Origin: Novipirellula galeiformis
Lineage (GTDB): Bacteria; Planctomycetota; Planctomycetia; Pirellulales; Pirellulaceae
Length of the DNA: 64,000 nt
Reading direction: 5' to 3'
NCBI RefSeq assembly: GCF_007860095.1
Contig: NZ_SJPT01000004.1
Coordinates: 612,729 to 676,728, forward strand
Both the position numbers and the translations under genes were made by a program. The notes under the pieces are model-generated. The model was not told where the DNA came from. It saw only the letters and a list, made by a program, of their open reading frames with translations, and did not search any database. Positions 15,908 to 61,662 of this stretch are shown piece after piece. Numbering within the stretch: position 1 is the stretch's first letter; each line of letters opens with the position of its first letter.

Positions 15908-16710
15908 GTGGCACTGCGTTTGCTAGGAAGAGGGGGCTTGCTAGGAAGAGGGGGCTTGCTAGGAAGAGGGGGCTTGCTGGGCACGGCGAGTTTCTTCAGG
16001 GCGGCATCGTTGGGAAAGTCCAGTAGCGCTTCTTCCAGCAAACCGGCCGCGAGATCGTCACGCTTGGCCGCACGCATATCAAGGATCAAATCATGGTATT
16101 GTCGTGCGAGTATCGCGTCGATTCTCGTGTTCAATTCGTCGAGGCTTTGCTTGCGCTGGGCCAGTTCAAACAGGGGAGGCATGAGTAGGTAGAGTTCACG
16201 GTCGGCGAGCCGTTGGATCACGGGCCAGAATCGTTTGGCATGTTCGGGGTGATCGATACTCCATTGTCGCCAATACTCGTTAGGCGTTTGTTGCAGCGAG
16301 AGTTGGTCGGCCAAGAGCTGAGCATCCGCCGGGGTCGAGCCCGTAAAGCCCCGTGAAATTTGGACCAAGTGCCATCGGGCGGTGGGCGTCGCGGGATCGA
16401 GGATCAGTTTGTTTTGGCGAAGGTAGATCGCCGTCTTCGCGGTCGAAGCGGTGCGGCGGATGGGGGTGATTTGCCAATGCAGCAAGGGGATCTCATAAAA
16501 TTGAAAATCTCGCATCAAAAAAGTGGTTGGCGAAATTTCGCGGCCGCTGACAAAGCCTTGGGTGCGAACCCATAGCAGGACAAACAAAGAGACTAGAATC
16601 GTCGCCAAAACAAGGATCCATCGTCGCAGTGAACCTTTTTGTTTCTTCAAGGTTCGCGATGCAGAGGGGCTAGACGAAGCGGACGATGGGGGCAATACCG
16701 TGGTGGACAA
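15904..16710 (-). CDS. Uncharacterised single-pass membrane protein with PSKPPL repeats
   Basis: 268 residues with no recognised family. A Ser-rich N-terminus precedes one membrane helix, ILVLATILVSLFVLLWV (about 34-50), then a soluble, largely helical region. The last 27 residues contain three perfect PSKPPL repeats. These are encoded by an 18-bp DNA tandem repeat, so the tail is a product of repeat expansion. The stop overlaps the cysteine desulfurase start by four bases, which links the two genes translationally, but nothing in the sequence explains the pairing. Gene reality is well supported by length, membrane helix and overlap. Confidence 0.8.
   Translation of the reverse strand: MSTTVLPPSSASSSPSASRTLKKQKGSLRRWILVLATILVSLFVLLWVRTQGFVSGREISPTTFLMRDFQFYEIPLLHWQITPIRRTASTAKTAIYLRQNKLILDPATPTARWHLVQISRGFTGSTPADAQLLADQLSLQQTPNEYWRQWSIDHPEHAKRFWPVIQRLADRELYLLMPPLFELAQRKQSLDELNTRIDAILARQYHDLILDMRAAKRDDLAAGLLEEALLDFPNDAALKKLAVPSKPPLPSKPPLPSKPPLPSKRSAT
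15921..15974. repeat. 18-bp in-frame tandem repeat, 3 copies
   Basis: Three perfect copies of tgctaggaagagggggct (15921-15938, 15939-15956, 15957-15974). Read on the minus strand they encode PSKPPL three times at the C-terminus of the 268-residue membrane protein. Confidence 0.95.
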
Positions 16711-49287: not shown

Positions 49288-49754
49288 CTCAAACTCCATG
49301 TTCGTGTATCCATTTGACATCGCAGCTGCACCACCGCGGCGACCGAAACCTTTTCGGCCTTTTGAGTCGCAGTGATATTCTGCGCCGAGCCTGTTTGGCT
49401 TCAGGTGGCGGTTGCAACAGCATGTCTTGTGCCGAAGCCCGTCGAGACGCACTGAAATGTCGCGGCGGTGTCGCTCTGGATTCGCGTTTACAAACGGCGC
49501 AGTGTTTGCATTGCCAGCGTTAGCATCGGTTTTGTTTTGGCTTGCACGCTCAGCAAGAAACGGCCTGGTAAGCGAGAGTCGGCCGAATTTGCGACGCAAC
49601 CCAATGTGCGACAACGTCACAAGTGACTTGCCAAACGTGTCATCGCGCACCAACGCGAGTCGTCGTGAGGGGCGCCCGCGATCGGAGGTGCACTGAATAA
49701 CAATCCCTCTGATGACTCCGATGCAGCACCTCGAATCATCAAACGGAAAAAATC
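49288..49754. other. Intergenic gap, 467 bp
   Basis: Divergent gap between the lipoprotein and alcohol dehydrogenase genes. Short frames exist on both strands but none has a motif or ribosome-binding site. Should hold the promoters of both. Confidence 0.55.
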
Positions 49755-50765
49755 ATGAGAGCGATGGTCTTGTCGCAAACCGCTTTGCTGAGCGATGAGC
49801 CCGAGCCGCTACACTGTATGGAGCTGGACACGCCACAGCCCGCCGAAAACGAATTGCTGATTCGTGTCGCGGCGTGTGGGGTTTGTCACACCGAGCTCGA
49901 TGAAATCGAAGGTCGCTTGACTCCATCACGCCTACCGATCGTGCTCGGGCATGAAGTGGTGGGCCGCGTTGCCGAGCGAGGCTCCCAGGTCACCCGTTTT
50001 GATATCGGAGATCGAGTTGGGGTAGGGTGGATCCATCATTCCAGTGGCACGCCCGCCGAGAACCTCTCGCCACAGTTCGCTGCGACCGGTTGTGATGTCA
50101 ACGGCGGCTACGCTGAATTCATGACCGTACCGGAAACCTATGCGGTGGCGATCCCCGACCGTTTCAGCGATGCGCAGGCCGCGCCGCTAATGTGTGCCGG
50201 CGCGATCGGATACCGCGCGTTGCGGTTAACGGGACTTCGTGATGGCGAGCCGCTCGGCTTGATGGGCTTTGGAGGCTCGGGACATCTCGTTTTACAAACC
50301 GCGAAGCATCTCTTTCCAAACTCGCCCGTGTACGTATTCACGCGAGAGGAATCGGTCCAGCGGTTCGCATGCAAATTGTCCGCAGATTGGGCGGGAGGCA
50401 TCGACGCGACGCCCCCGCAACCGTTGAACGCGATCATCGACACAACGCCTGCCTGGAAACCCGTGGTGGAATCACTGAAAAAACTTCACCCCGGAGGCCG
50501 TTTGGTGATTAACGCGATTCGTAAGGAAGACGCGGATAAAGAGGAGCTGTTGAAACTAAGTTATCACGAGCATTTGTGGATGGAACGCGAGATCAAGTCG
50601 GTCGCAAACTTAACGCACGCGGACATCGCCGAGTTCTTGCCGCTCGCCGCAGCGATCCCGATCCTCCCCGAAGTCACCCTTTTTCGGCTCGAACAAGCCA
50701 ACGCGGCTCTACGCAACCTGCGACGTGGACAAATCAAGGGTGCCAACGTCTTGGTTGTGGCGTGA
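49755..50765 (+). CDS. Zinc-dependent alcohol dehydrogenase family protein lacking structural-zinc cysteines
   Basis: 336-residue medium-chain dehydrogenase. Catalytic zinc ligands are present: VAACGVCHTELDE (Cys about 44), VLGHEVVGRV (His 66) and LMCAGAIGYRALRL. The Rossmann part LGLMGFGGSGHLVLQTAKHL follows. In typical members a lobe with four cysteines follows GDRVGVGW; here the text is IHHSSGTPAENLSPQFAATG with those cysteines gone and the loop shortened. Such forms (adhA-type 'zinc-binding alcohol dehydrogenase') are known in stress-linked clusters. It is probably an NAD(P)-dependent alcohol/aldehyde reductase. It opens the island with DUF2267, baeRF, GT4, GH130 and CBS genes. Confidence 0.9.
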   Translation: MRAMVLSQTALLSDEPEPLHCMELDTPQPAENELLIRVAACGVCHTELDEIEGRLTPSRLPIVLGHEVVGRVAERGSQVTRFDIGDRVGVGWIHHSSGTPAENLSPQFAATGCDVNGGYAEFMTVPETYAVAIPDRFSDAQAAPLMCAGAIGYRALRLTGLRDGEPLGLMGFGGSGHLVLQTAKHLFPNSPVYVFTREESVQRFACKLSADWAGGIDATPPQPLNAIIDTTPAWKPVVESLKKLHPGGRLVINAIRKEDADKEELLKLSYHEHLWMEREIKSVANLTHADIAEFLPLAAAIPILPEVTLFRLEQANAALRNLRRGQIKGANVLVVA

Positions 50766-50888
50766 GCCCGTATTCGCGGCGCGGTCTGCGTTGGCATGAT
50801 CGACGCGGTGTCACGGTTGGGTTCCGTGATTTGACGTCCTACTCAAATGCGTCGTCGCACGCGTATTCAAATCGCGATCGATTAGGGC

Positions 50889-51443
50889 TCACTCCTTTGG
50901 CATTAGCTCTCGTAGTGGTTTGGGAAGAATCGCTTTGATATCGGCGATTTCACCTTGGCTGACATGTCGGCTGAGGATGCTCAAGACGGCGCGGGTCAAG
51001 CGTTCGGGGTCGATGCTCGAATCGTTAGGAAACTCATGTAAAACATGCTCGAAGAACGCTTGTTGGGATCGGTCTTTGACGGGAGCATGGCTTGGTTGCC
51101 AGCCTTCGAAAAACATACCGCGAATCAAGGTCGGCAATTGTGCCGAGACGTCGGCCATTTCGTGAAGCGTCAAGCGATCGCGAAGCGCATGTAAAACGAC
51201 GCGCAACGCATGATAGGCTTTTTGAGCATCCTGCCACTGTAACTCGACCATCAGTTCGCTGACCCAGCGTTTCGTTTTCTGCACGGTCGTCGCAAAGGCG
51301 GGAATGTTGCTGCGTCCTTGTTTCGGCTTCGCTTTGGTGCTCGCGTTGCCTTCGTCGCGCTCGGTGCCCTCATCGCCGGTGTTGAAGACAATATAGAACT
51401 CCTCGACACCGTGCACATTGCTGTAGATGGAGGTGCCATTCAT
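50889..51443 (-). CDS. DUF2267 protein
   Basis: 184 residues. The core FATTVQKTKRWVSELMVELQ, AYHALRVVLHALRDRLTLHE, DVSAQLPTLIRGMFFEGWQP and AVLSILSRHVSQGEIADIKA match DUF2267, an all-helical domain of unknown function. An N-terminal stretch of about 55 residues is charged and not conserved; agga nine bases before ATG 51443 supports the long start. From knowledge of the family, DUF2267 genes often sit with universal stress, CBS and alcohol dehydrogenase genes, as here. Function unknown. Confidence 0.87.
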   Translation of the reverse strand: MNGTSIYSNVHGVEEFYIVFNTGDEGTERDEGNASTKAKPKQGRSNIPAFATTVQKTKRWVSELMVELQWQDAQKAYHALRVVLHALRDRLTLHEMADVSAQLPTLIRGMFFEGWQPSHAPVKDRSQQAFFEHVLHEFPNDSSIDPERLTRAVLSILSRHVSQGEIADIKAILPKPLRELMPKE

Positions 51444-51711
51444 GATTTATGTCCTGGGAGCGAGGAAATCGGGAGGACTTGTGGAACTATCGATTCTATT
51501 CCTAAGCAACCTAAGCAACTGGTGGGCCACAAAATGGGAACGTCAGAAAAGAAAGCGACTAAGAGGGCAAAGTGTGGAGTGGCTTCGCATGGCTGGGGTG
51601 ACTCGATCACGATGCGTGCGCGTTTCGCTGCACCGCGAAGCAGCCATTTTATTGCCGGTGGCGCGTCGTTTGCTTTGCAGCTTCTTCAGCTAACCACGGA
51701 GAACTTCAACG

Positions 51712-52671
51712 ATGACTGACTCAAATGAGCTCGAACATCCCTGGCTTGTCGCTGTCTGGCCTGGCATGGGACACGTTGCCCTGAGCGCGGGGTACTACTT
51801 GATGTCGAAACTGGGGATGAATCAATTCGCCGAGCTTTCCTCGGCAGGTTTGTTCGATATCGATGTGGCGATCGTGCGAGACGGGTTGGTCCAGAAGCCG
51901 AATCGGCCGCAGAGCCGTTTGTTCGCTTGGAAGGCGCCGCCGGGCCAACGAGACGTGATTGTCTTTATCGGTGAAGCGCAGCCGCCGTTGGGCAAGTATG
52001 CATTTTGTGAACGTCTGCTCGACCTTGCTCGCGAGTTGCGTGTCGAGCGAGTTTTCACGTTTGCAGCGATGGCGACCGAGATGCATCTTGGCGATGACGC
52101 GCGAGTCTTTGTGGCGGCGACGGGACAACCGCTGCTCGATGAACTCGCCAACACGAACGTTCATCGGCTGGGCGAAGGGCATGTCGGAGGGCTCAACGGC
52201 GTGTTGCTTGCTGCGGCGATTGAGAAAGGAATACCGGGGATTTGCTTGCTCGGCGAAATGCCTCACGTGTTTTCACAAATGTTGTATCCCAAAGCTTCCT
52301 TGGCGGTGTTGCGCGTCTTTGTCGAGTTGGCAGGGATTGAATTGGATTTTGCCGAACTCGCCAAACACGCCGAAGCGACGGAGCACCGTTTGGGACAATT
52401 GATTGCCGAGGTGCAGCGGCGACTTGAGGCGGTCGAGGACGAAGATACGGGCGAAGGAGATAAAACCGGCGGCGAGCCGTGGCAGTCCGAACCGACCGAA
52501 TCGGGGATTTCTCCGGAGGATGAACGACATCTCGAAACGATGTTCGATGCTGCCAAGCAAGATCGCTCCCGAGCGTTTGAGTTGAAAAGCGAACTCGATC
52601 GACTCGGCGTGTTTGAAGACTATGAGGATCGCTTTCTCGATTTGTTCAAAAAGGAGGATCCCGGAGCGTAG
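51712..52671 (+). CDS. PAC2-family protein (proteasome-assembly-chaperone-like)
   Basis: 319 residues. WLVAVWPGMGHVALSAGYYL, VIVFIGEAQPPLGKYAFCER, VERVFTFAAMATEMHLGDDA, LGEGHVGGLNGVLLAAAIEK and PGICLLGEMPHVFSQMLYPK are the PAC2 pattern. PAC2 proteins in archaea and eukaryotes help 20S proteasome assembly; bacterial members outside actinobacteria are uncharacterised. The final 110 residues are an acidic linker and helical segment without assignment. ggaga precedes ATG 51712 at nine bases. No proteasome gene is in the window. It sits between DUF2267 and baeRF genes. Confidence 0.85.
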   Translation: MTDSNELEHPWLVAVWPGMGHVALSAGYYLMSKLGMNQFAELSSAGLFDIDVAIVRDGLVQKPNRPQSRLFAWKAPPGQRDVIVFIGEAQPPLGKYAFCERLLDLARELRVERVFTFAAMATEMHLGDDARVFVAATGQPLLDELANTNVHRLGEGHVGGLNGVLLAAAIEKGIPGICLLGEMPHVFSQMLYPKASLAVLRVFVELAGIELDFAELAKHAEATEHRLGQLIAEVQRRLEAVEDEDTGEGDKTGGEPWQSEPTESGISPEDERHLETMFDAAKQDRSRAFELKSELDRLGVFEDYEDRFLDLFKKEDPGA

Positions 52672-53006
52672 CTTTCGTCGTTTCCCTTTCCCGATTGAAG
52701 CGATCGCGGCGAGTTCGACAATGCGGCGGTTTGCAAGCGTTTCCCAATCGGGGCGTGCGGTTGGCTCACCACTGCGGCTCAACGTTCGGTGTCAATGATG
52801 GGCCATTGGGGACCTGCAATGGTATCCGAGGGGGCGGCGGGTGTGCATCCCCGCGCAGATCGCACCGCTTCGACGGGAATTGAAAAGAAGGCTCTGCGAA
52901 CGCAAAGCAAATCAGATGAATCACAAACACGGGAATTACATCCTCACAGGAACAGCGTTTGCACTATTTGCATTTCTAAAATGCTCATTTGAATAAGGAA
53001 AATGTG
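52672..53006. other. Intergenic gap, 335 bp
   Basis: Between the PAC2 and baeRF genes on the plus strand. I see no terminator, repeat or gene; aagga at 52995-52999 is the baeRF ribosome-binding site. Confidence 0.5.
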
Positions 53007-54188
53007 ATGGCGTTCAAACGATTCACTCGTGACGACTTGGACCGCTTGATCGCCAGCGTGGGCGGTCCACATCTGAGTTTGTACCTGCCCCCGCCTCCCT
53101 CGATTAACGCCGCAGACCAAGATCGAATTCGAATCGGTAATGTGGCGCGAAGTGCCCAAGAATCGCTGGCAAAGCATTGGATGTCCGAAGCAGACGCCGC
53201 CGGCTTTCTGGGGCCGCTACGCAAGTTGGCCAACACGCCGGCGCTTGCGACTCCCCGCACCCACGGGATTGCGGTCTTTCTGCAGGGTGATTCACTCGAG
53301 ACGTTTCGTGTTGAAAGTGCGGTTAAAGAACATTGGACCATCGCACGTGCGTTTCAGGTTCGCTCCTTGCTACCAAGTCTGGGACAGCTCGAGGCCTATA
53401 ATGTGCTCACGTTGAGCCAAAAACGAGTCGCTTTGTTCGCGGGCACGGTTGACGTGTTGGAGCGGAGGAGCGTTCCCGGGTTGGAGGAGAGTTTCGAGCA
53501 GTTGCAGGACTCATTGACCGCCGAGCCACAGCTCCAAGCCCATTCGGCCGCTAGTAGCATGCGGGGTAAACAGGGCGGCAAACAGGGCGCGGTCTTTCAT
53601 GGGCAAGGCGGGCTGCCGGACTCGGAAAAGAAGGACTTTGAAAACTATTTAAAACGGGTCGATGATGTCGTCTGCGGCTACTTGCGGCAATCTCCTGCTA
53701 CGCCGCTGATTCTAGCGGGAGTGGATTCGGTGACAGCAACGTTTCGCTCGGTTTGCCGGTACGATTCGCTGCTCGCCGATTCGCTCTCGGGTAACGTCGA
53801 TCATCTCTCGGCCGATCAACTTCGGATGCGAGTGGCCGATATTGTCACGGAGGAAAACGGACGCCAGCGCGAGCAAGATGCCTCACGAATTCGCGAACAT
53901 GACGTGCCCACCGCGACCGAGTCTGAACGCATTTTGATCGCGGCATTCGAAGGCCGTATCGACACGTTGTTCATCGACCGAGACGCATCGCTTCACGGGA
54001 TGTTTATGGTCGATCGCGGTATCTTGAAGGAGGTGCATCACGCACCGACAGGTGACCCCGCCGACGAGAGTCATGATTTGATCGAGCTGGCTGCCGTGCA
54101 AACCCTCAAAACCGGCGGCACGGTCCATGCGGTGCCAACCGACGCGATGCCGGTCGCGACCACCATGGCCGCGGCCCTGCGGTTTTGA
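53007..54188 (+). CDS. Bacterial archaeo-eukaryotic release factor family protein (baeRF, family 3/7-like)
   Basis: 393 residues from ATG 53007 (aagga eight bases upstream). The N-terminus GGPHLSLYLPPPPSINAADQ is the baeRF opening, where related proteins read xxSIYLPTHRxxxxxQDPIR. The central GKQGGKQGAVFHGQGG (about 188-202) is the glycine/glutamine loop occupying the place of the eRF1 GGQ loop. YLRQSPATPLILAGVDSVTA and a C-terminal ILIAAFEGRIDTLFIDRDAS complete the RF1/eL30-like layout. These proteins are predicted to hydrolyse peptidyl-tRNA in ribosome rescue or stress; this is prediction from sequence studies, with little direct proof. It is co-oriented with the cytochrome and GT4 genes. 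Confidence 0.8.
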   Translation: MAFKRFTRDDLDRLIASVGGPHLSLYLPPPPSINAADQDRIRIGNVARSAQESLAKHWMSEADAAGFLGPLRKLANTPALATPRTHGIAVFLQGDSLETFRVESAVKEHWTIARAFQVRSLLPSLGQLEAYNVLTLSQKRVALFAGTVDVLERRSVPGLEESFEQLQDSLTAEPQLQAHSAASSMRGKQGGKQGAVFHGQGGLPDSEKKDFENYLKRVDDVVCGYLRQSPATPLILAGVDSVTATFRSVCRYDSLLADSLSGNVDHLSADQLRMRVADIVTEENGRQREQDASRIREHDVPTATESERILIAAFEGRIDTLFIDRDASLHGMFMVDRGILKEVHHAPTGDPADESHDLIELAAVQTLKTGGTVHAVPTDAMPVATTMAAALRF

Positions 54189-54367
54189 ATCGCGGAAAAT
54201 ATCGCTCCGCGGTCGCCAGCAAATCCGTCACGCTGCGGCCGCCTTTTTGCGACCAGAACGTATCACGCTCGATGCAATGATTGCGATTCCGATGGCGTGG
54301 CAGCTTTGGTCGCGTTCCATCCCCTCTCGATTTGCAACGATCATTGTTTCACTCGGAGAAATTTTCC

Positions 54368-54826
54368 ATGAGAACGTCATTGCTAGGCATGGTTTTACTC
54401 GTTTTGTTTTCGGTTGGATGCCGACCCGATTCAAAATCGGGAAAGGGATTCACGTTACCCACCGGCGATATTGAACGCGGTAAACAAGCCTTCACTCAAC
54501 TGCAGTGTCATGCGTGTCATACCGTTTCGGACGTGACGTTGGAGCCGATTGAAACGGACCCGAACCAAACCATGGTTTCGCTCGGGGGCGCTAAGACGCG
54601 AGTGCAAACCTATGGAGATCTCGTCACGTCGATCATCAATCCATCGCATCGCTTCGCTCAGGGGTATCCAAGTGAAGACGTGGCCATCGATGGCACCTCC
54701 AAAATGCGCAGCTACAACGATGAGATGACAGTCCAGCAACTCATCGATCTTGTCGCCTTTTTGGAATCGCACTATTCAGTAATCCAATACGATCCGACCC
54801 CCTACGCCCCCTATTACCACTTGTAG
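54368..54826 (+). CDS. Lipoprotein cytochrome c (single haem)
   Basis: 152 residues from ATG 54368; the frame is open to 54281 but the signal begins here. MRTSLLGMVLLVLFSVGC is a lipoprotein signal with lipidated Cys 18. IERGKQAFTQLQCHACHTVS carries the haem motif C47-H-A-C50-H51, and a distal methionine is probable in SKMRSYNDEM. The fold fits class I cytochrome c. It is membrane-tethered in the periplasm and may take electrons for a terminal oxidase. It lies 179 bp after the baeRF gene and 48 bp before the GT4 fusion gene. Confidence 0.88.
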   Translation: MRTSLLGMVLLVLFSVGCRPDSKSGKGFTLPTGDIERGKQAFTQLQCHACHTVSDVTLEPIETDPNQTMVSLGGAKTRVQTYGDLVTSIINPSHRFAQGYPSEDVAIDGTSKMRSYNDEMTVQQLIDLVAFLESHYSVIQYDPTPYAPYYHL

Positions 54827-54874
54827 CACGTTTCATCGACCGTTCAATCGCAATTCAAGCTCGAGGCACTTTCG

Positions 54875-57181
54875 ATGCAGAACACGGAACCGGAACGACG
54901 GATTGCCTGCGTGGGGACCTTCCCGCCTCGTCAATGTGGGATTGCGACCTTTACTCAAGACCTTTGTCGGGCGATTGAAAGTCGAAACGATTCGGGACGG
55001 CATTGTCATGTGCTCGCGATCAATGACCGCGCCGAGCGATATGATTATCCCGCGAGCGTGCGGTTCGAAATCCGCCAACAACAGCCATCCGATTACCGTT
55101 TGGCGGCGGATTTTGTCAATATTCGCAACTGCGAAGTCTTGCTGCTGCAGCATGAGTATGGAATCTTTGGCGGAGATTGTGGCGAGCATTTGTTGGGCTT
55201 CCTGCGGAATGTGCGGATGCCGGTGGTGACAACCTTGCACACGGTGCTACCGGACCCATCGCCACAAATGCGAAGAGTGACGGAAGCGATCATCGAACAT
55301 TCTGACCGCCTCGTCATGATGAGCGAACATTCCGCGGCTTTGCTGCGTGATGTTTACAAGCTTTCCAACGACAAAGTCCGGATGATTCCGCATGGCATTC
55401 CGGATTTGCCATTCGTCGATTCGAGTTTCTACAAGGATCATTTTGGCGTCGAAGGGCGAACGGTGATGTTGACGTTCGGTTTGCTTTCGCCAGGAAAAGG
55501 AATCGAGTATGCCATTGGGGCGCTACCCAAATTGATCCCCCAGCATCCTGAACTCATTTACGTCATTCTGGGTGCGACCCATCCTCATGTTTTGCAAGAT
55601 CGTGGAGAAGAGTATCGCCATCAACTGCAACATATGGCCGAAGATCTAGGCGTGTTGGATCACGTGATGTTCATCAACCGCTACGTTGATTTGGCGGAAC
55701 TGTGCGAGTTCTTGATGGCCGCGGATATTTATGTCACGCCTTCGCTTGCAGAGCAACAGATCGCCTCAGGCACTTTGGCCTATGCGCTCGGCGCCGGCAA
55801 AGCGGTGGTCGCGACACCTTATGTTTATGCCAAGGAATTATTAGCCGAGGAACGTGGTCGCTTGGTGCCATTTCGTAATGCGGACGCGATCGCTCGCGAA
55901 GTCGGTTGGTTGCTCAGCAACGAACAAGAACAACAAGCGATTCGCAAACGAGCCTACCTGTATAGCCGCCAAGCGGTCTGGTCCGAGGTAGCGCAGCGCT
56001 ACTTGGAGGTATTCGACGAGGTGATTCATCAACCGTCGGTCGCCACTCGGCGATACCATGCGTATCGCGCGGATGCCACGTCACCACTGCACGCGGTTCC
56101 CGAAGTGAATGTTGCGGCGCTGCACTCGATGACTGATGATGTGGGGATGTTACAACATGCGAGGTTCACCATTCCCGATCGCAACCACGGATATTGCACC
56201 GACGACAATGCGCGGGCGCTGGTCGTCGCGCTGCAATCGTATGAATTGACCCAAGACGACGCGATGCTGAAATTAGCGCGGACGTACCTGAGTTTCGTGC
56301 ATCATGCGTTCAATCCAAATGCCGCTCGGTTTCGCAACTTCATGAGCTACGATCGCAGCTGGAAAGAGGAGATCGGTTCGGAAGATTCACACGCGCGAGC
56401 GTTATGGGGACTCGGGTCGGCCGTCTCGTTGGCGCGACACGACGGGTTCCGGGCGCTCGCGCTCGATTTGTTTGACCGAGCGGTCCATGTGACCGCCGAT
56501 TTCACCTCGCCGCGAGCTTGGGCGTTCACGTTGGTCGGTCTGCATGCGTACCTCCGCCGCTATGGCGGCGATAGTGACGTCAAGCGGATTCGCGAGAGTC
56601 TGGGCAACCGCTTGTACGACCAATTCCTGGCCAATGCTCAAGACGATTGGCCGTGGCCCGAAGACACTTTGACCTATTCGTGTGGCAAAATTCCGCATGC
56701 GCTGCTGTTGGCCGGCCAATGGATGCAACATGGCGGAATGATCGACATCGGACTTCGTTCACTCGATTGGTTACTGAAAATTCAGACCAGCGAGGGCGGG
56801 CACCTTTCATTGATCGGTAACCAAGGCTGGTTTCCACGCGGCGGTGCGAAGGCACCGTTTGACCAGCAACCGATCGAAGCCCATGCACTGTTGGAAGCGT
56901 GCTTGGAAGCTCACTCGGTGACCCAGGATGACCGATGGTTTGTCGAGGCTCGACGTTGTTTTGATTGGTATCTCGGACGCAACGATTTAGGGATTCCCAT
57001 CTACAACTACGAGACCGGTGGCTGCCGTGATGGTCTGCACGAAGAAGGTGTCAATGAAAATGAAGGTGCCGAATCGACGCTGGCTTGGTTGTTGTCGGTG
57101 CGGGCGATCCGAGCGGCAAAGTTAGTTGAGCAGATCGGGCAGAGCGAAACTTCAGCGGAGTTCGCAACCGATCAAGGATAG
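54875..57181 (+). CDS. GT4 glycosyltransferase fused to alpha/alpha-toroid domain
   Basis: 768 residues. Residues 1-395 are a GT-B family 4 transferase: VGTFPPRQCGIATFTQDLCR (acceptor side), MLTFGLLSPGKGIEYAIGAL, ELIYVILGATHPH and the donor site PSLAEQQIASGTLAYALGAG with VVATPYVYAKELLAEERGRL. After a linker, residues 410-750 form helical repeats ending in acidic or aromatic loops: HGYCTDDNARALVVALQSYE, WPWPEDTLTYSCGKIPHALL, EGGHLSLIGNQGWFPRGGAK and FDQQPIEAHALLEACLEAHS. This is the signature of an (alpha/alpha)6 barrel such as glycoside hydrolases or epimerases. gagg lies nine bases before ATG 54875. The gene faces a GH130 operon, so both probably handle one mannose-type glycan. Confidence 0.88.
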   Translation: MQNTEPERRIACVGTFPPRQCGIATFTQDLCRAIESRNDSGRHCHVLAINDRAERYDYPASVRFEIRQQQPSDYRLAADFVNIRNCEVLLLQHEYGIFGGDCGEHLLGFLRNVRMPVVTTLHTVLPDPSPQMRRVTEAIIEHSDRLVMMSEHSAALLRDVYKLSNDKVRMIPHGIPDLPFVDSSFYKDHFGVEGRTVMLTFGLLSPGKGIEYAIGALPKLIPQHPELIYVILGATHPHVLQDRGEEYRHQLQHMAEDLGVLDHVMFINRYVDLAELCEFLMAADIYVTPSLAEQQIASGTLAYALGAGKAVVATPYVYAKELLAEERGRLVPFRNADAIAREVGWLLSNEQEQQAIRKRAYLYSRQAVWSEVAQRYLEVFDEVIHQPSVATRRYHAYRADATSPLHAVPEVNVAALHSMTDDVGMLQHARFTIPDRNHGYCTDDNARALVVALQSYELTQDDAMLKLARTYLSFVHHAFNPNAARFRNFMSYDRSWKEEIGSEDSHARALWGLGSAVSLARHDGFRALALDLFDRAVHVTADFTSPRAWAFTLVGLHAYLRRYGGDSDVKRIRESLGNRLYDQFLANAQDDWPWPEDTLTYSCGKIPHALLLAGQWMQHGGMIDIGLRSLDWLLKIQTSEGGHLSLIGNQGWFPRGGAKAPFDQQPIEAHALLEACLEAHSVTQDDRWFVEARRCFDWYLGRNDLGIPIYNYETGGCRDGLHEEGVNENEGAESTLAWLLSVRAIRAAKLVEQIGQSETSAEFATDQG

Positions 57182-57430
57182 TCTCTTTTTTCATCGCCAC
57201 CCCAACAATCCGTTTTTGGCCGCAGGGGTTTAGTCGTACCAATTTAGATTGCCCGCACCGTTTAATCCCGTACCTTTTCATATCGTGTGCAACCCGGCGG
57301 CGGATCGTCTGAAGAACCGGGGGGACGTTATGGTTTGTCGCAGGGATGACCATCATGGTTTGTCCCATTGGAATTGTGCACGCTCCGCGGACGGTGACTC
57401 GCTGCGGATATACTACGGGGGCAGCCGATA

Positions 57431-57460
57431 CTTGCATGGCAGTACCCACCGCCATGCAAG
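57431..57460. terminator. Stem-loop, possible terminator
   Basis: Perfect 10-bp inverted repeat cttgcatggc (57431-57440) and gccatgcaag (57451-57460), loop agtacccacc, followed by tattatt. It lies 250 bp after the GT4 fusion gene in the convergent gap. Confidence 0.55.
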
Positions 57461-57478
57461 TATTATTCGATTGGCTTA

Positions 57479-57612
57479 ACGAACAAGTGACTTAACGAAC
57501 AAGTGACTGACGAACAAGTGACTGACGAACAAGTGACTGACGAACAAGTGACTGACGAACCAGTGACTGACGAACCAGTGACTGACGAACCAGTGACTGA
57601 CGAACCAGTGCG
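57479..57612. repeat. 15-bp tandem repeat, 8 copies plus partial
   Basis: One copy (57479-57493) is separated by a single extra base from seven perfect-phase copies of acgaacaagtgactg starting at 57495, ending with a partial copy at 57600-57612. The first five read acgaacaag, the last three and the partial acgaaccag, so the array has two sub-blocks. This implies an early point change followed by further duplication. Confidence 0.96.
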
Positions 57613-57671
57613 ATCGGATTGGAAGAACGATCTGTTGTTGAACCATACATGCCAATGGCGATGGAATGAAT

Positions 57672-59153
57672 TTATGGATGCAGTTCGTTTAGTAGTTTTT
57701 CCAACGACACCACGGCGACACCGGTCACCGAGTCGGACATGGCGTAGGGGATGAACAAACAATGATGGTGGGCGAGCGCGCCACAGGTATAGACGACATT
57801 GGGCACATAGCCTTCGCGTTCTTGTTCGTTTGGTGCAATCAGCGGTTCCTGCAAGGAGCCGATCACACGCAACGGATCATCGCGGTCCAACAACATCGCC
57901 CCAATGCAATACTTTCGCATCGGACCGACGCCATGGGTTAACAATAACCAACCTTCACTGGTTTCGATCGGTGATCCACAGTTTCCGATTTGCATAAACT
58001 CCCAAGGTTGTCGGGGGGCCCGTAGCATCTCGGCCGTTTCCCAGAACTGAATATTGTTGGAAAACATCAGGAACAGATTCTCGCCGTCGATTCGTGAACT
58101 CATGCAATAGTGTCCATTGACTCGCCGTGGAAATAATGCCATCCCTTTGTTCTGGACGACAGGGCCGTTGAGGGTATGAATTTTCAAATGGTGAAAGTCG
58201 CAAGTCTCCATCAATTGGGGTAAGACGTGAGTGCCGTTGTAGGCCGAGTAGGTTCCGAAATACCGCACACTGTGGTCGTCGTCGATGAACCGTACCAACC
58301 GCAAATCTTCGATGCCCATGCGGTCGTTGTCGCTCTGGGGAAAGACAACCAGCTCGGAAATATCCGCATCTTCATCGAGGCTAAGTTGATAGTTTTCGCG
58401 TGCCAGCCAGGTCATATTGTCGGCCGTTTCGCCGAGTAAATACAGGTCGGGATATTCGGCGTGGATATGTTCGATGGCGTGCTCAAGTTCGACCATCGTA
58501 AATGAATCGGGCAATCGATTCATGACTAAATCCATTACCGATTCATCTACGACCACTTCGCACAACTTGCGGCGAAACAACGCTTTCTCGTATCGACGAT
58601 CGGGTGATAATCGCATCCGATGTTGATGGGCCGCGGGCGGATCGAATTGAATGTGATGGCGGGGACCGATCGTGCCCGTTCGAAACACGATCGATGACAC
58701 ATGCCCTTCTCCGGTCGCGCGCAAACTCATAATGAATCGTAACGATTCTTCGTCGACGCCGGATTGGTCGGGATGCAAAACGATCGAAGGATTGAATAGA
58801 GCTGCCGATGCAAAGGCGTACTCCATCGTGAAATAGGCGCCGATCAACCGTTGTCGCGATGGTGTGAACTGCGCGAGTTCGGGGACGAGTTGAAGCGCTT
58901 GGCGAAAGTGATCGGTCCATTCGGAAAGCATGTCTTTGTGCCGCGCAGCAAATTCGGCTTGTACTTGGCGGAGGATCACTTGTACGCCCTCATCGGAAAG
59001 CTCGCTAACCCGATGGCAAACGCTCCGCACACGGGCTTCCCCACCGGGAAAGAATGGCCGCGTCACGACCCAGCGATCATCGGCGGTGAACTTGACCGAC
59101 AACCGTTGTACCAACGGACTGTCGCATGTATCAGAAACAGTTTCAGGAATCAT
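57672..59153 (-). CDS. GH130-family glycosidase/phosphorylase
   Basis: 493 residues. The five-bladed propeller of GH130 is indicated by NDRMGIEDLRLVRFIDDDHS (about 277, the GxEDxR block), VRYFGTYSAYNGTHVLPQL, VVQNKGMALFPRRVNGHYCM, GNCGSPIETSEGWLLLTHGV and the closing YVPNVVYTCGALAHHHCLFI. Family members phosphorolyse or hydrolyse beta-mannosides. The usual EDPR is EDLR here. About 150 N-terminal residues are extra to the core. Its first 11 bases overlap the 3' end of the Gfo/Idh gene, so it is the last gene of a four-gene minus-strand operon. The GT4 fusion gene converges on it. Confidence 0.9.
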   Translation of the reverse strand: MIPETVSDTCDSPLVQRLSVKFTADDRWVVTRPFFPGGEARVRSVCHRVSELSDEGVQVILRQVQAEFAARHKDMLSEWTDHFRQALQLVPELAQFTPSRQRLIGAYFTMEYAFASAALFNPSIVLHPDQSGVDEESLRFIMSLRATGEGHVSSIVFRTGTIGPRHHIQFDPPAAHQHRMRLSPDRRYEKALFRRKLCEVVVDESVMDLVMNRLPDSFTMVELEHAIEHIHAEYPDLYLLGETADNMTWLARENYQLSLDEDADISELVVFPQSDNDRMGIEDLRLVRFIDDDHSVRYFGTYSAYNGTHVLPQLMETCDFHHLKIHTLNGPVVQNKGMALFPRRVNGHYCMSSRIDGENLFLMFSNNIQFWETAEMLRAPRQPWEFMQIGNCGSPIETSEGWLLLTHGVGPMRKYCIGAMLLDRDDPLRVIGSLQEPLIAPNEQEREGYVPNVVYTCGALAHHHCLFIPYAMSDSVTGVAVVSLEKLLNELHP

Positions 59154-60300
59154 GGATGATGACTTCGCCGAGGGGAGAGCAGTTGGGTGCAGAGGATTGG
59201 CTCGCCAATCGGTTCGCCTGCACCGCCATACGCAAGGCTTCGCGGCTATGGAGCTCGGTGAGGCGGCGTTGGTGAGATGGCTCGCTGATACGTTTGAGTT
59301 GATCTTCCATCAACGCTCGCACCAACTCGCCGTAGCGGTTCATTTTGTCGCTGTCCTGGCCCGTCGAGATACGAATACGGCGATCGACGGGGAATGCTTC
59401 ATGTCGCCCGTGACAGACGCGTTGTTCGCCAAAGTATGATTCAAGGAGGTCGAGCGTCGCGTCGGGGAACAACGCGACAAGTTGTGCTTCGTCCGCATCG
59501 CTGACGATTGCATCGAGACTCAACCGCGTTGGAATCCAGCCATGCAGCGTGACGTCGCCGCGTTCAAAGACAATCCGAATCTCTTGTCGATCCATGCGGG
59601 CGGTTTGATGAAAGCCGTGATAAAAATTAACCAGGATCTCATCGCGATAACGGACACAGCACTGGACTTGATCTTCCTGCGCTCGCGGTTGCCGCAGGCA
59701 TCGTTGGGCCGCTACAACTTCGCCGTTGCCGAGCCAGCTCGCGAACAGATCAAAGAAGTGCACTCCATGTTCGACAAAAATGCCGCCGCTTTTCTCGGGA
59801 TCCCAAAACCAATGGTCCGTCGCGAGTTGTTCGTCGGAGGCGTAGTTCTCGAAGTAGCCATGTAGCGGTTTGCCGAGGATTTGGTTGGCGATCAGTTTGC
59901 CGACGCGGTCGGCCAGCGGATTGTAACGCTGGATCAGATTCGCCACCACAATCCGGTCGCTCGCCTTAGCAAACGCGATCATTTCATCGGCTTGAGCCAA
60001 GGAAAGCGCGAGGGGTTTTTCGCAAACGACATGCTTGTCGGCCGTTAGCGCTGCGATCGCATGGCGATGATGCAAGAATGGGGGCGAGGCGATGTAGACC
60101 AAGTCAACGTCGGGCCGCTGACAAAGCGAATCGACGCTGGGAGCGTCAATCAAACCAAAGTGTTTAGCGGCTCGCTCGGCGGCTGCTCGATTCGGATCGG
60201 AGACCGCGATTAAGTTCACATTCGGTATCTTCGCATATTGCTGCATGGCGTAGAATCCGAATCCACCACATCCGATCACACCGATTCCTAACTCGCCCAT
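59143..60300 (-). CDS. Gfo/Idh/MocA-family oxidoreductase
   Basis: 385 residues. GVIGCGGFGFYAMQQYAKIP is the NAD(P) site. VYIASPPFLHHRHAIAALTA with KHVVCEKPLALSLAQADEMI carries the family's EKP motif. WFWDPEKSGGIFVEHGVHFF is the substrate loop ending in the catalytic GxxxEHGxHxxD. These enzymes oxidise or reduce sugars, inositols or other polyols. It lies 24 bp after the 76-residue protein gene and overlaps GH130 by 11 bp. Sugar substrate unknown; partnership with GH130 suggests mannose derivatives. Confidence 0.92.
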   Translation of the reverse strand: MGELGIGVIGCGGFGFYAMQQYAKIPNVNLIAVSDPNRAAAERAAKHFGLIDAPSVDSLCQRPDVDLVYIASPPFLHHRHAIAALTADKHVVCEKPLALSLAQADEMIAFAKASDRIVVANLIQRYNPLADRVGKLIANQILGKPLHGYFENYASDEQLATDHWFWDPEKSGGIFVEHGVHFFDLFASWLGNGEVVAAQRCLRQPRAQEDQVQCCVRYRDEILVNFYHGFHQTARMDRQEIRIVFERGDVTLHGWIPTRLSLDAIVSDADEAQLVALFPDATLDLLESYFGEQRVCHGRHEAFPVDRRIRISTGQDSDKMNRYGELVRALMEDQLKRISEPSHQRRLTELHSREALRMAVQANRLASQSSAPNCSPLGEVIIHDS

Positions 60301-60324
60301 CGTTTCCTCGTTCCATGCTTGGGG

Positions 60325-60555
60325 TTACCGCTCGGAATTGTGATTCACTCGCCTGGGTCGCGCGGTGGGCCATTCGCGATCATCGCTCACTTCCAATTGC
60401 TCCAACACTTCGTTGGCATCCTCGTAGCTGTGATACGGACCGGGATCAATCAATTGCCCTCCTTGGGTGGCAGCAGCATCCTCGGCAGATTGCCCGGTGA
60501 TCAGTTCAATCACTTCAAATCCATCTTCGACTTCGATAACGGCAAACGAATGCAT
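60325..60555 (-). CDS. Small acidic protein of unknown function
   Basis: 76 residues, MHSFAVIEVEDGFEVIELIT followed by DPGPYHSYEDANEVLEQLEV. aagga seven bases before ATG 60555 is a good ribosome-binding site. It is set between CBS and Gfo/Idh genes with gaps of 36 and 24 bp, so it is a real operon member. The first half looks like a two-strand beta hairpin with a helix (a ubiquitin- or wing-like size). No family recognised. Confidence 0.7.
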   Translation of the reverse strand: MHSFAVIEVEDGFEVIELITGQSAEDAAATQGGQLIDPGPYHSYEDANEVLEQLEVSDDREWPTARPRRVNHNSER

Positions 60556-60591
60556 GACAGATCCTTGATTGAAAATGCGACCACGTTCGAC

Positions 60592-61089
60592 TCATCCCAT
60601 GATGAAGCGGTGGTTGATGATTTGGTGGACATCGACGGGAAACCGCTCCACATCTTTTCTGCGGATCCAATCGCGATAGTATCGATCGAGCGATTGCAAA
60701 ATGTCGCGTCGACTGACGATGCCAAGCAGGTTTTGATCCTGAACTACCGGAAGATGCCGATAGTGATGGCTCGTGAAGATCGAGGTGAGTGCAAAGAGGT
60801 CGGTTTCGGAGCCGACACAGACCGGATGCTTCTTCATGATCGTCTCGGCTCGCTGCGGCGGACTTGGGCTGCCGTAGAACAACTCGTTGCTCATGAATTC
60901 CAGACAATCACTTTCGGAAAGAAAGCCCAACAACCGTTGATGCTCGCCTTGCGAATCCACGACTGGAACGCTCGACAATTGATGTTTGAGTAGAAAGGTA
61001 ACAATCTCGTCTAACTTCATCGCCGGACCAATCGTCTGGATATGCGAAGTCATGATTTCCGCGGCGTTGGGAGCGGGTTCGATATTCAT
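60592..61089 (-). CDS. CBS-pair domain protein
   Basis: 165 residues, two CBS repeats. The first is AAEIMTSHIQTIGPAMKLDE to LLKHQLSSVPVVDSQGEHQR and LLGFLSESDCLE. The second is AETIMKKHPVCVGSETDLFA to SHHYRHLPVVQDQNLLGIVS with SRRDILQSL. The arrangement binds adenine nucleotides (AMP, ATP, SAM) and typically senses energy state. aaagg precedes ATG 61089 by eight bases. It is the first gene of the operon with the small protein, Gfo/Idh and GH130, which suggests it signals or gates glycan metabolism by energy charge (inference). Confidence 0.92.
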   Translation of the reverse strand: MNIEPAPNAAEIMTSHIQTIGPAMKLDEIVTFLLKHQLSSVPVVDSQGEHQRLLGFLSESDCLEFMSNELFYGSPSPPQRAETIMKKHPVCVGSETDLFALTSIFTSHHYRHLPVVQDQNLLGIVSRRDILQSLDRYYRDWIRRKDVERFPVDVHQIINHRFIMG

Positions 61090-61662
61090 GGCGTTCGCCT
61101 TTCATCCGGCGGGATGCAGTTCAAAATTCGACCAGCCTAAACGAGCAAAAACCGCGCCCAACGGATGACCACGCGGCACCGCTCCGAGATCACCAACGCG
61201 AACGCATCGCAGCGAGGATCGATTGGCGTTTTTGGAGAGCGTCGTGGAAGTGGTAGAGACGATCGTCGTTGCGGTACGCGATACCGCGTGATCAAGACCG
61301 CGTGATCAAGACCGCGTGATCAAGACTGATTGCGAAGTTTTGCCGTCAAAGGTTTTTTTTCTTTGTCACCGTGATCAAAACTTGTGAGACGAATCATGAA
61401 TGATCTCCGCTGCGGTTGTGCCCAATAGCACACCCCAAAAGCGTCGACTCGGATCATTTCCACGCGGTATAGGCTTTGCTGTTTTTTGTTAGCGGCAAAG
61501 TGAGGCGATGAGATTCTTAAACTCGCTGAGATTTTCAGGCTAGCATTGTGTAGCGAAGGGGGGTGATGAAAGCGATCGACTTTGCAACCGAGCGTGACGA
61601 AATGGTGAAACGCCAGATCGAGGCTCAAACGGTCTGCGTGGTTTCTTCTACAATCAGCAAGC
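61090..61662. other. Divergent intergenic gap, 573 bp
   Basis: Between the CBS operon and the last membrane protein gene. It contains a 14-bp tandem array at 61283-61324. A minus-strand open frame (61320-61745) runs into the next gene antisense and shows no motif. Otherwise empty to my eye. Confidence 0.55.
61283..61324. repeat. 14-bp tandem repeat, 3 copies
   Basis: Three perfect copies of accgcgtgatcaag (61283-61296, 61297-61310, 61311-61324). Each contains the palindrome tgatca. Confidence 0.95.

Follow-up and report, generated by a model that had tools for sequence, protein, structure and literature searches.

Among the closest described relatives of the locus reported here are the Balon operons. 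Balon genes (AOC03_06830) adjoin those of RaiA and Hsp20, and in mycobacteria they lie near the hypoxia factor Hrp1 (PMC10901736, available passages); genes of the baeRF families adjoin HPF genes, and most of the proteins lack the catalytic glutamine (PMC6514570, available passages). The locus itself is an island of ten genes in a 64-kb stretch of the 7.4-Mb genome of Novipirellula galeiformis (contig NZ_SJPT01000004.1); the whole stretch of 64,000 nucleotides (nt) is called the window below. Like the Balon operons (PMC10901736; PMC6514570, both seen in part), the island holds an aeRF1-like protein without GGQ among stress genes. Unlike them, it has no RaiA or HPF gene among its ten genes as judged by Pfam. 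The ten genes probably make up a single island of a stress (dormancy) regulon that is dispersed and depends on sigma-54. This reading starts from the gene content, the statistics of sigma-54-like sites, an rpoN gene, a homologue of a sigma-54 activator and gene sets that recur in other planctomycetes.

The DosR regulon of mycobacteria offers a second comparison: it contains baeRF (Rv2629), CBS, universal stress protein (Usp), Hsp20 and nitroreductase genes, is induced by hypoxia, and is governed by DosR, a NarL-type activator that works without sigma-54. The induction of Rv2629 was found in the literature passages available. The same five kinds of gene appear in the proposed island regulon, which differs in that no DosR is found among the ten genes and in that the proposed activator is of the NtrC type. 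We take COG5502 to be the DUF2267 proteins and COG1503 the eRF1-like proteins, and COG2152 is named in the available literature passages as the GH130 proteins. The predicted sigma-54 regulon of Planctomycetia includes Usp, IbpA/Hsp20, GroEL, NtrC/ZraR-type regulators and CBS proteins (COG0517), as far as the accessible text goes (Carrera-Reyna et al. 2025, PMC12316311). It resembles the proposed island regulon in Usp, Hsp20, GroEL, NtrC-type regulators and CBS, and differs from it in that the available main text of PMC12316311 names neither 'hibernation' nor COG5502, COG1503 or COG2152. Francke et al. 2011 (PMC3162934, in part) point to a link between sigma-54 and ribosome hibernation, since diderm species carry the HPF gene next to rpoN, and hpf expression in Caulobacter is treated in PMC12421884 (in part). 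Unlike the baeRF case, the passages of PMC3162934 concern HPF next to rpoN itself and not baeRF promoters, and the word 'planctomycet' is absent from its main text as available.

Predicted sigma-54 control of stress genes in Planctomycetia, Balon stress operons and a sigma-54-hpf link are thus already in print. The main text of PMC10901736, in its available part, contains neither 'sigma-54' nor 'rpoN'; linkage of baeRF to PAC2, DUF2267 or a GT4-GH130 pair was not found in the Balon and baeRF passages (PMC10901736; PMC6514570). The literature passages searched likewise gave no sigma-54 control of baeRF and no link of it to DUF2267, PAC2 or the sugar module, and a literature search for DUF2267 with a CBS domain and hypoxia returned no match.

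An earlier note on this DNA had described a ten-gene stress island. All ten open reading frames (ORFs) were found where it had placed them; in the ORF list and Pfam profiles of the window, Pfam agrees with nine assignments, and the 76-residue protein (p76) has no family. The genes are:

49755..50765, plus strand: alcohol dehydrogenase (ADH), TIGR02822-like but under the TIGR02822 cut-off, with ADH_N; no structural-zinc cysteines; 64% relative in locus L034
50889..51443, minus strand: DUF2267 protein (PF10025, 114 bits)
51712..52671, plus strand: PAC2-family protein (PF09754, 135 bits)
52989..54188, plus strand: baeRF, a candidate Balon-like ribosome-hibernation factor; the start may be the ATG at 53007
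54281..54826, plus strand: lipoprotein cytochrome c (Cytochrom_C, PF00034, 28 bits); the true start is probably at 54368
54875..57181, plus strand: GT4 glycosyltransferase fused to an alpha/alpha toroid domain (Pfam GT4 domains and AlphaFold)
57672..59153, minus strand: GH130 phosphorylase-like enzyme with a long N-terminal extension (PF04041, 102 bits)
59143..60300, minus strand: Gfo/Idh/MocA oxidoreductase (GFO_IDH_MocA); relatives in the GT4-toroid loci L064 (68%) and L027 (55%)
60325..60555, minus strand: p76, no Pfam family
60592..61089, minus strand: two-CBS-domain protein, first gene of the minus-strand operon (PF00571, 2 stretches)

The CBS, p76, Gfo/Idh and GH130 genes form a tightly packed minus-strand group with gaps of 36, 24 and -11 nt. 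This group does converge on plus-strand genes, as the note's two converging sub-operons would have it, but the layout is more complex: DUF2267, a minus-strand gene flanked by ADH and PAC2, is divergent from PAC2.

The window was scanned with a sigma-54 matrix whose weights were fixed beforehand from the known consensus. Six unit starts were counted in the island (ADH, DUF2267, PAC2, baeRF, cytochrome c and CBS), and four of them have a -24/-12-like site of at least 13 bits 41-86 nt upstream, compared with 1 of the 26 leading ORFs of the window outside the island. Nine sites in the window reach 12.8 bits, and because four of these nine precede island genes at 41-86 nt on the gene's own strand, their placement is more than chance. 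The -24/-12-like sites at the island are:

51514..51529, minus strand: 13.1 bits, 86 nt before DUF2267
51659..51674, plus strand: 15.7 bits, 53 nt before PAC2; also matches the strict genome-wide pattern
52948..52963, plus strand: 13.1 bits, 41 nt before baeRF
61144..61159, minus strand: 13.1 bits, 70 nt before CBS
49495..49510, plus strand: weak, 12.8 bits, 260 nt before ADH; not relied on

The same kind of site was found before baeRF genes of other genomes. Eleven of the 25 upstream regions in a first set reach 13 bits, the window's own included, compared with 0.7% of random windows and a mean of 0.14 in shuffles (maximum 1 of 25); counted from ORF starts, minus the window and the own-genome paralogue, 11 of 23 genes have a site. 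For a second set, 296 genomes of the order were sampled and stretches of up to 20 kb taken. There baeRF is present in 46 genomes (E 1e-25; own genome included), and 12 of 32 baeRF genes reach 13 bits, whereas of the 242 remaining leading ORFs in these loci one does (Fisher 9e-12). These twelve are spread over seven genera; one genome of the set (G263) was already part of a phylum-wide sample, and a wider count that includes three loci sampled elsewhere gives 13/37. With starts set by alignment, the counts are 11/25 for the first set and 12/34 for the second (three loci had no match).

When both sets were pooled with two loci of the window's class and the own-genome paralogue, a correctly spaced site stood before 25 of 58 baeRF genes, and none of the 58 had one with the spacer changed by 1, 2 or 3 nt in either direction (six spacings); the reverse strand gave 3/58. 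Six loci whose baeRF the ORF caller missed (L030, L034, L052, L199, L200 and L209) stand outside the 58, and all fall below 13 bits by alignment, so the full count is 25/64.

The own genome encodes RpoN (PF04552, 209 bits, at C1:1045010), and a strict sigma-54 pattern has 43 matches genome-wide versus 28 for the reversed control, while a pattern with the spacer one base longer, used as a negative control, has 16 versus 18. Recognisable genes follow 11 of the 43 strict matches: baeRF2, PAC2, thioredoxin, nitroreductase, Usp, DUF1328, a GlgB-like enzyme, a short-chain dehydrogenase, Hsp20, an aldolase and a SpoIIAA-like gene. Pfam names nine of these targets and homology two, and Usp and Hsp20 require a start later than called. 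The other strict matches lie inside genes, before genes named by eye or before unnamed ORFs.

Nine of the ten island genes recur in stress islands of other planctomycetes, CBS at family level only. Locus L034 holds baeRF with ADH and PAC2; L203 holds DUF2267, baeRF, GroEL, Hsp20, PAC2 and ADH; and L206 holds baeRF with an overlapping Usp-CBS-cytochrome c string (L206:12454-13930), in which the cytochrome is 46% identical to that of the window and the CBS protein 28% over 60 residues. Because these genes overlap near a baeRF gene, L206 suggests that the cytochrome lipoprotein may work with CBS/Usp proteins. The window and L034 ADH proteins read WIHHSSGT and WIHSSSGD where the L203 homologue retains CGQCPQC, which bears out the claim that the ADH lacks structural-zinc cysteines. 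For p76 the searched loci yielded no relative at the thresholds applied, in a search that did not extend to whole genomes.

The fullest counterpart is the island of UBA6163 (L064). It holds two Hsp20 genes, PAC2 (68%), DUF2267 (57%), GH130 (72%), PCMT, Gfo/Idh (68%) and GT4-toroid (77%), and continues with a short GH130 gene and then kinases and regulators, among them a NarL-type regulator. Seven of its twelve sites of at least 12 bits precede Hsp20, PAC2, DUF2267, GH130, PCMT, Gfo/Idh and GT4-toroid; those of PAC2, DUF2267, GH130 and Gfo/Idh assume a start inside the automatically called ORF. The sigma-54 activator beside this island has its best own-genome match at C5:383452 (67% identical), with 16 weaker matches.

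Around this activator homologue lies a second stress-type region (G000:C5:368000-402000; L304, L305) with many sigma-54 sites. It contains NiFe hydrogenase subunits, a nitroreductase, a CBS protein, a cyclic-nucleotide-binding (cNMP-binding) protein, kinases and Usp genes, one of them Pfam-confirmed and three more named by eye.

PAC2 is rare, occurring in 8 of 60 genomes including the own one. Five relatives carry PAC2 together with a strong baeRF (E at most 1e-20), and in four of these the two genes lie no more than 2.2 kb apart. In the neighbourhood comparison that the earlier note had proposed, baeRF co-occurs with DUF2267, PAC2 or ADH in a minority of loci, and no baeRF locus examined other than the window holds GH130. 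Apart from the window, 65 baeRF loci have PAC2 in 6, DUF2267 in 2, ADH in 3 (one only 38% identical) and the cytochrome in 1, so that multi-gene sets are a minority of baeRF loci. The earlier note's refuting condition, a gene order unique to this strain, applies to the exact order, which no other stretch examined shows, but not to the gene sets, which recur elsewhere.

The baeRF protein is a candidate hibernation factor by its sequence. It scores above the gathering cut-off for baeRF Pfam families 7, 3, 6, 11 and 8, and reaches 92.8 bits over residues 43-399 in the NCBIfam Balon model AOC03_06830, whose equivalog cut-off of 330 bits it does not reach; it would thus be a relative of Balon and not the same equivalog. 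Neither GGQ nor NIKS occurs in the window protein, and among aligned baeRF proteins the GGQ string is found in 3/59 and NIKS in 0/59. Ribosome rescue, which the earlier note had named, does not fit a protein without GGQ that NCBIfam places, below cut-off, toward the Balon hibernation family. Rescue by peptide release was rejected for want of a GGQ, and the protein is better read as a hibernation factor than as a rescue factor. No PDB relative was found by sequence, and a single-sequence model (predicted local distance difference test score, pLDDT, 35.6) was not used.

The sugar module joins the GT4-toroid and GH130 genes. The AlphaFold model of the GT4-toroid protein (mean pLDDT 86.4, predicted template modelling score, pTM, 0.56) shows a GT-B-like half and, after it, an all-helical repeat domain, so the fusion reported earlier is real; the toroid domain alone matches no Pfam family. 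By structure, the nearest relatives of the GT4 half are MshA and the GDP-mannose enzyme PimA. Five planctomycete loci encode GT4 and toroid as two adjoining genes. GT4-toroid occurs with GH130 in 73 of the best 80 of at least 582 confirmed places, across many phyla (L064-L143). In view of this wide spread a strain-specific glycan is not supported, and neither is the 'private' glycan of the earlier note. Two contigs labelled Lokiarchaeota are among these loci.

The nearest PDB relatives of the window GH130 are beta-1,2-oligomannan and beta-1,2-mannobiose phosphorylases, and the protein scores 133.8 bits against the beta-1,2-mannobiose phosphorylase equivalog, short of its 450-bit cut-off. Its ED.R, the NK of NK....(F)P and the H of 'thg' align with 9fj8, and 7fip is partly alike; these motif residues may be those of the catalytic Asp and of phosphate binding. 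Because the nearest structures are beta-1,2-mannoside enzymes and equivalog cut-offs are not reached, the sugar of the module is likely a beta-mannoside, and its linkage is a guess. Two GH130 beta-1,2-mannoside phosphorylases lie near a GT4 glycosyltransferase in Thermoanaerobacter, in a 12-ORF transport/GDP-mannose cluster (PMC4264767, available passages); unlike the enzyme of that cluster, the GT4 of the window carries a fused toroid and lies in a stress island. Beta-1,2-mannan serves as an energy store in Leishmania (PMC8950772, available passages), and a reserve made by GT4-toroid and recycled by GH130 would be similar to Leishmania mannogen. Put forward only tentatively, and as an unlikely case, is that the sigma-54 dormancy regulon couples hibernation to an intracellular beta-1,2-mannan reserve, with GT4-toroid/GH130 as a general bacterial mannogen-like system.

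Several results weigh against a single shared regulon. A conserved ten-gene operon was looked for and not seen in any other stretch examined, and gene order is not conserved. Within the island, ADH and cytochrome c lack a convincing site (best 0.1 bits within 220 nt and 9.7 bits). The UBA6163 island is without baeRF; that genome's baeRF lies on a separate contig, is 24% identical and has no site. In the first-set loci, 18/335 other leading ORFs have a site (several of them stress genes), a background far above the 1/242 of the second, and eight second-set loci belong to one genus, four of them with a site. The phylum-wide sample has a site before 3/18 baeRF genes, and since 2/3 within the window's class have one versus 1/14 outside it, sigma-54 control of baeRF looks largely class-specific. 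Counts for the other island genes, made at 12 bits in a planctomycete set that includes the window, are low: PAC2 1/6, the one being the window's own (relatives 0/5; the L064 site was missed in this count because the gene start was placed elsewhere), ADH 0/3, GH130 1/9 (1/41 in other loci) and GT4-toroid 2/15 (1/79 in other loci, which include eight planctomycetes). DUF2267 has a site in 3/8, or 2/7 relatives without the window, and Gfo/Idh in 1/2. Because of these low counts the strong generalisation of sigma-54 sites is limited to baeRF, and the sugar genes rest on the window and UBA6163.

These counts bear on whether the island is instead two independent neighbours, a stress block (ADH, DUF2267, PAC2, baeRF and CBS) beside a widespread GT4-GH130 module for ordinary carbohydrate metabolism, which is possible but doubtful. 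GT4-toroid and GH130 are both absent from all 65 baeRF loci examined besides the window. Among the best 80 of at least 582 GT4 loci, baeRF occurs in none and PAC2 with DUF2267 in L064 only, and no relative's GT4 stretch holds baeRF, though several contigs are short. Sites before GT4 are at background in the 79 other loci, where the single one (L102) is planctomycete, and a second GT4-GH130 copy sits elsewhere in the own genome. All of this would suit separate modules, but the sugar genes of UBA6163 lie among PAC2, DUF2267 and Hsp20 behind sigma-54 sites, and the window has GH130 and Gfo/Idh tightly arranged within the CBS operon, which itself follows such a site. The planctomycete GT4 loci L017 and L020, too, carry phosphoketolase, GroEL, D-2-hydroxyacid dehydrogenase, M50-CBS protease or MpsC genes.

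Sigma-54 control could also be real and answer nitrogen or carbon limitation rather than stress or dormancy. Nitrogen control is the classic role of sigma-54, and the own-genome candidates include a GlgB-like enzyme and an aldolase (Pfam) and a cysteine-synthase-like gene (by eye). This is nevertheless unlikely, since Usp, Hsp20, GroEL, nitroreductase, thioredoxin, PCMT and BON proteins account for many of the recognisable targets and neighbours, and since for Planctomycetia or Planctomycetota the scan in PMC12316311 (available passages) reports Usp, chaperones and ZraR-type regulators as enriched for sigma-54. That accessory genes piled up by chance without shared regulation is very improbable: the exact order is found in no other stretch examined and both baeRF (46/296 genomes) and PAC2 (8/60) are infrequent, own genome included, but the promoter statistics with their spacing control and the repeated co-location of rare genes argue against it. 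The unified stress island of the earlier note thus survives as a probable shared regulon with sigma-54 sites and recurring sets, without its ribosome rescue and private glycan.

Other features around the sites were recorded as well:

57479..57610, no strand: 15-bp tandem repeat with 8.7 copies (97% matches), in the gap where GT4 and GH130 converge
61283..61326, no strand: 14-bp direct repeats ACCGCGTGATCAAG, 3.1 copies, about 125-165 nt upstream of the CBS sigma-54 site

Activator sites commonly lie at such a distance from a sigma-54 promoter, and the 14-bp repeats are possible activator sites. A candidate activator motif, CACCGC, did not hold up elsewhere: it occurs at 12/16 chosen own-genome sites (random windows 0.23) and 2/5 further own-genome sites, and was not reproduced at the UBA6163 sites (1/7) or before other baeRF genes (4/25), which counts against a single regulon. 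Fitting of an activator motif scored slightly above eight shuffles (42.2 versus 33.2-37.8), and palindromic dyads near the sites are at chance level. The strongest site in the window (17.5 bits, 15909-15924, plus strand) has no recognisable gene start just downstream and perhaps marks a small RNA or small ORF.

For the sigma-54 stress regulon, we infer how the sites are used, the activator, the stress, the ribosome binding, the sugar and each protein's role as follows. A kinase that senses stress, together with an NtrC-type activator (perhaps the one encoded at G000:C5:383452), would turn on several distinct sigma-54 promoters. These would serve PAC2, DUF2267, the CBS-p76-Gfo/Idh-GH130 group and baeRF, the last possibly reading on into cytochrome c and GT4. 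The baeRF protein would park idle ribosomes as Balon does; the part of the ADH, cytochrome c and CBS proteins would be to tune redox and energy sensing; and the GT4-toroid/GH130 pair would produce an intracellular beta-mannoside and recycle it. If this is true, baeRF ribosome hibernation in Planctomycetia would stand under a sigma-54 switch, DUF2267 and PAC2 would acquire a physiological context, and the widespread, uncharacterised GT4-toroid/GH130 module would acquire a testable role in stress.

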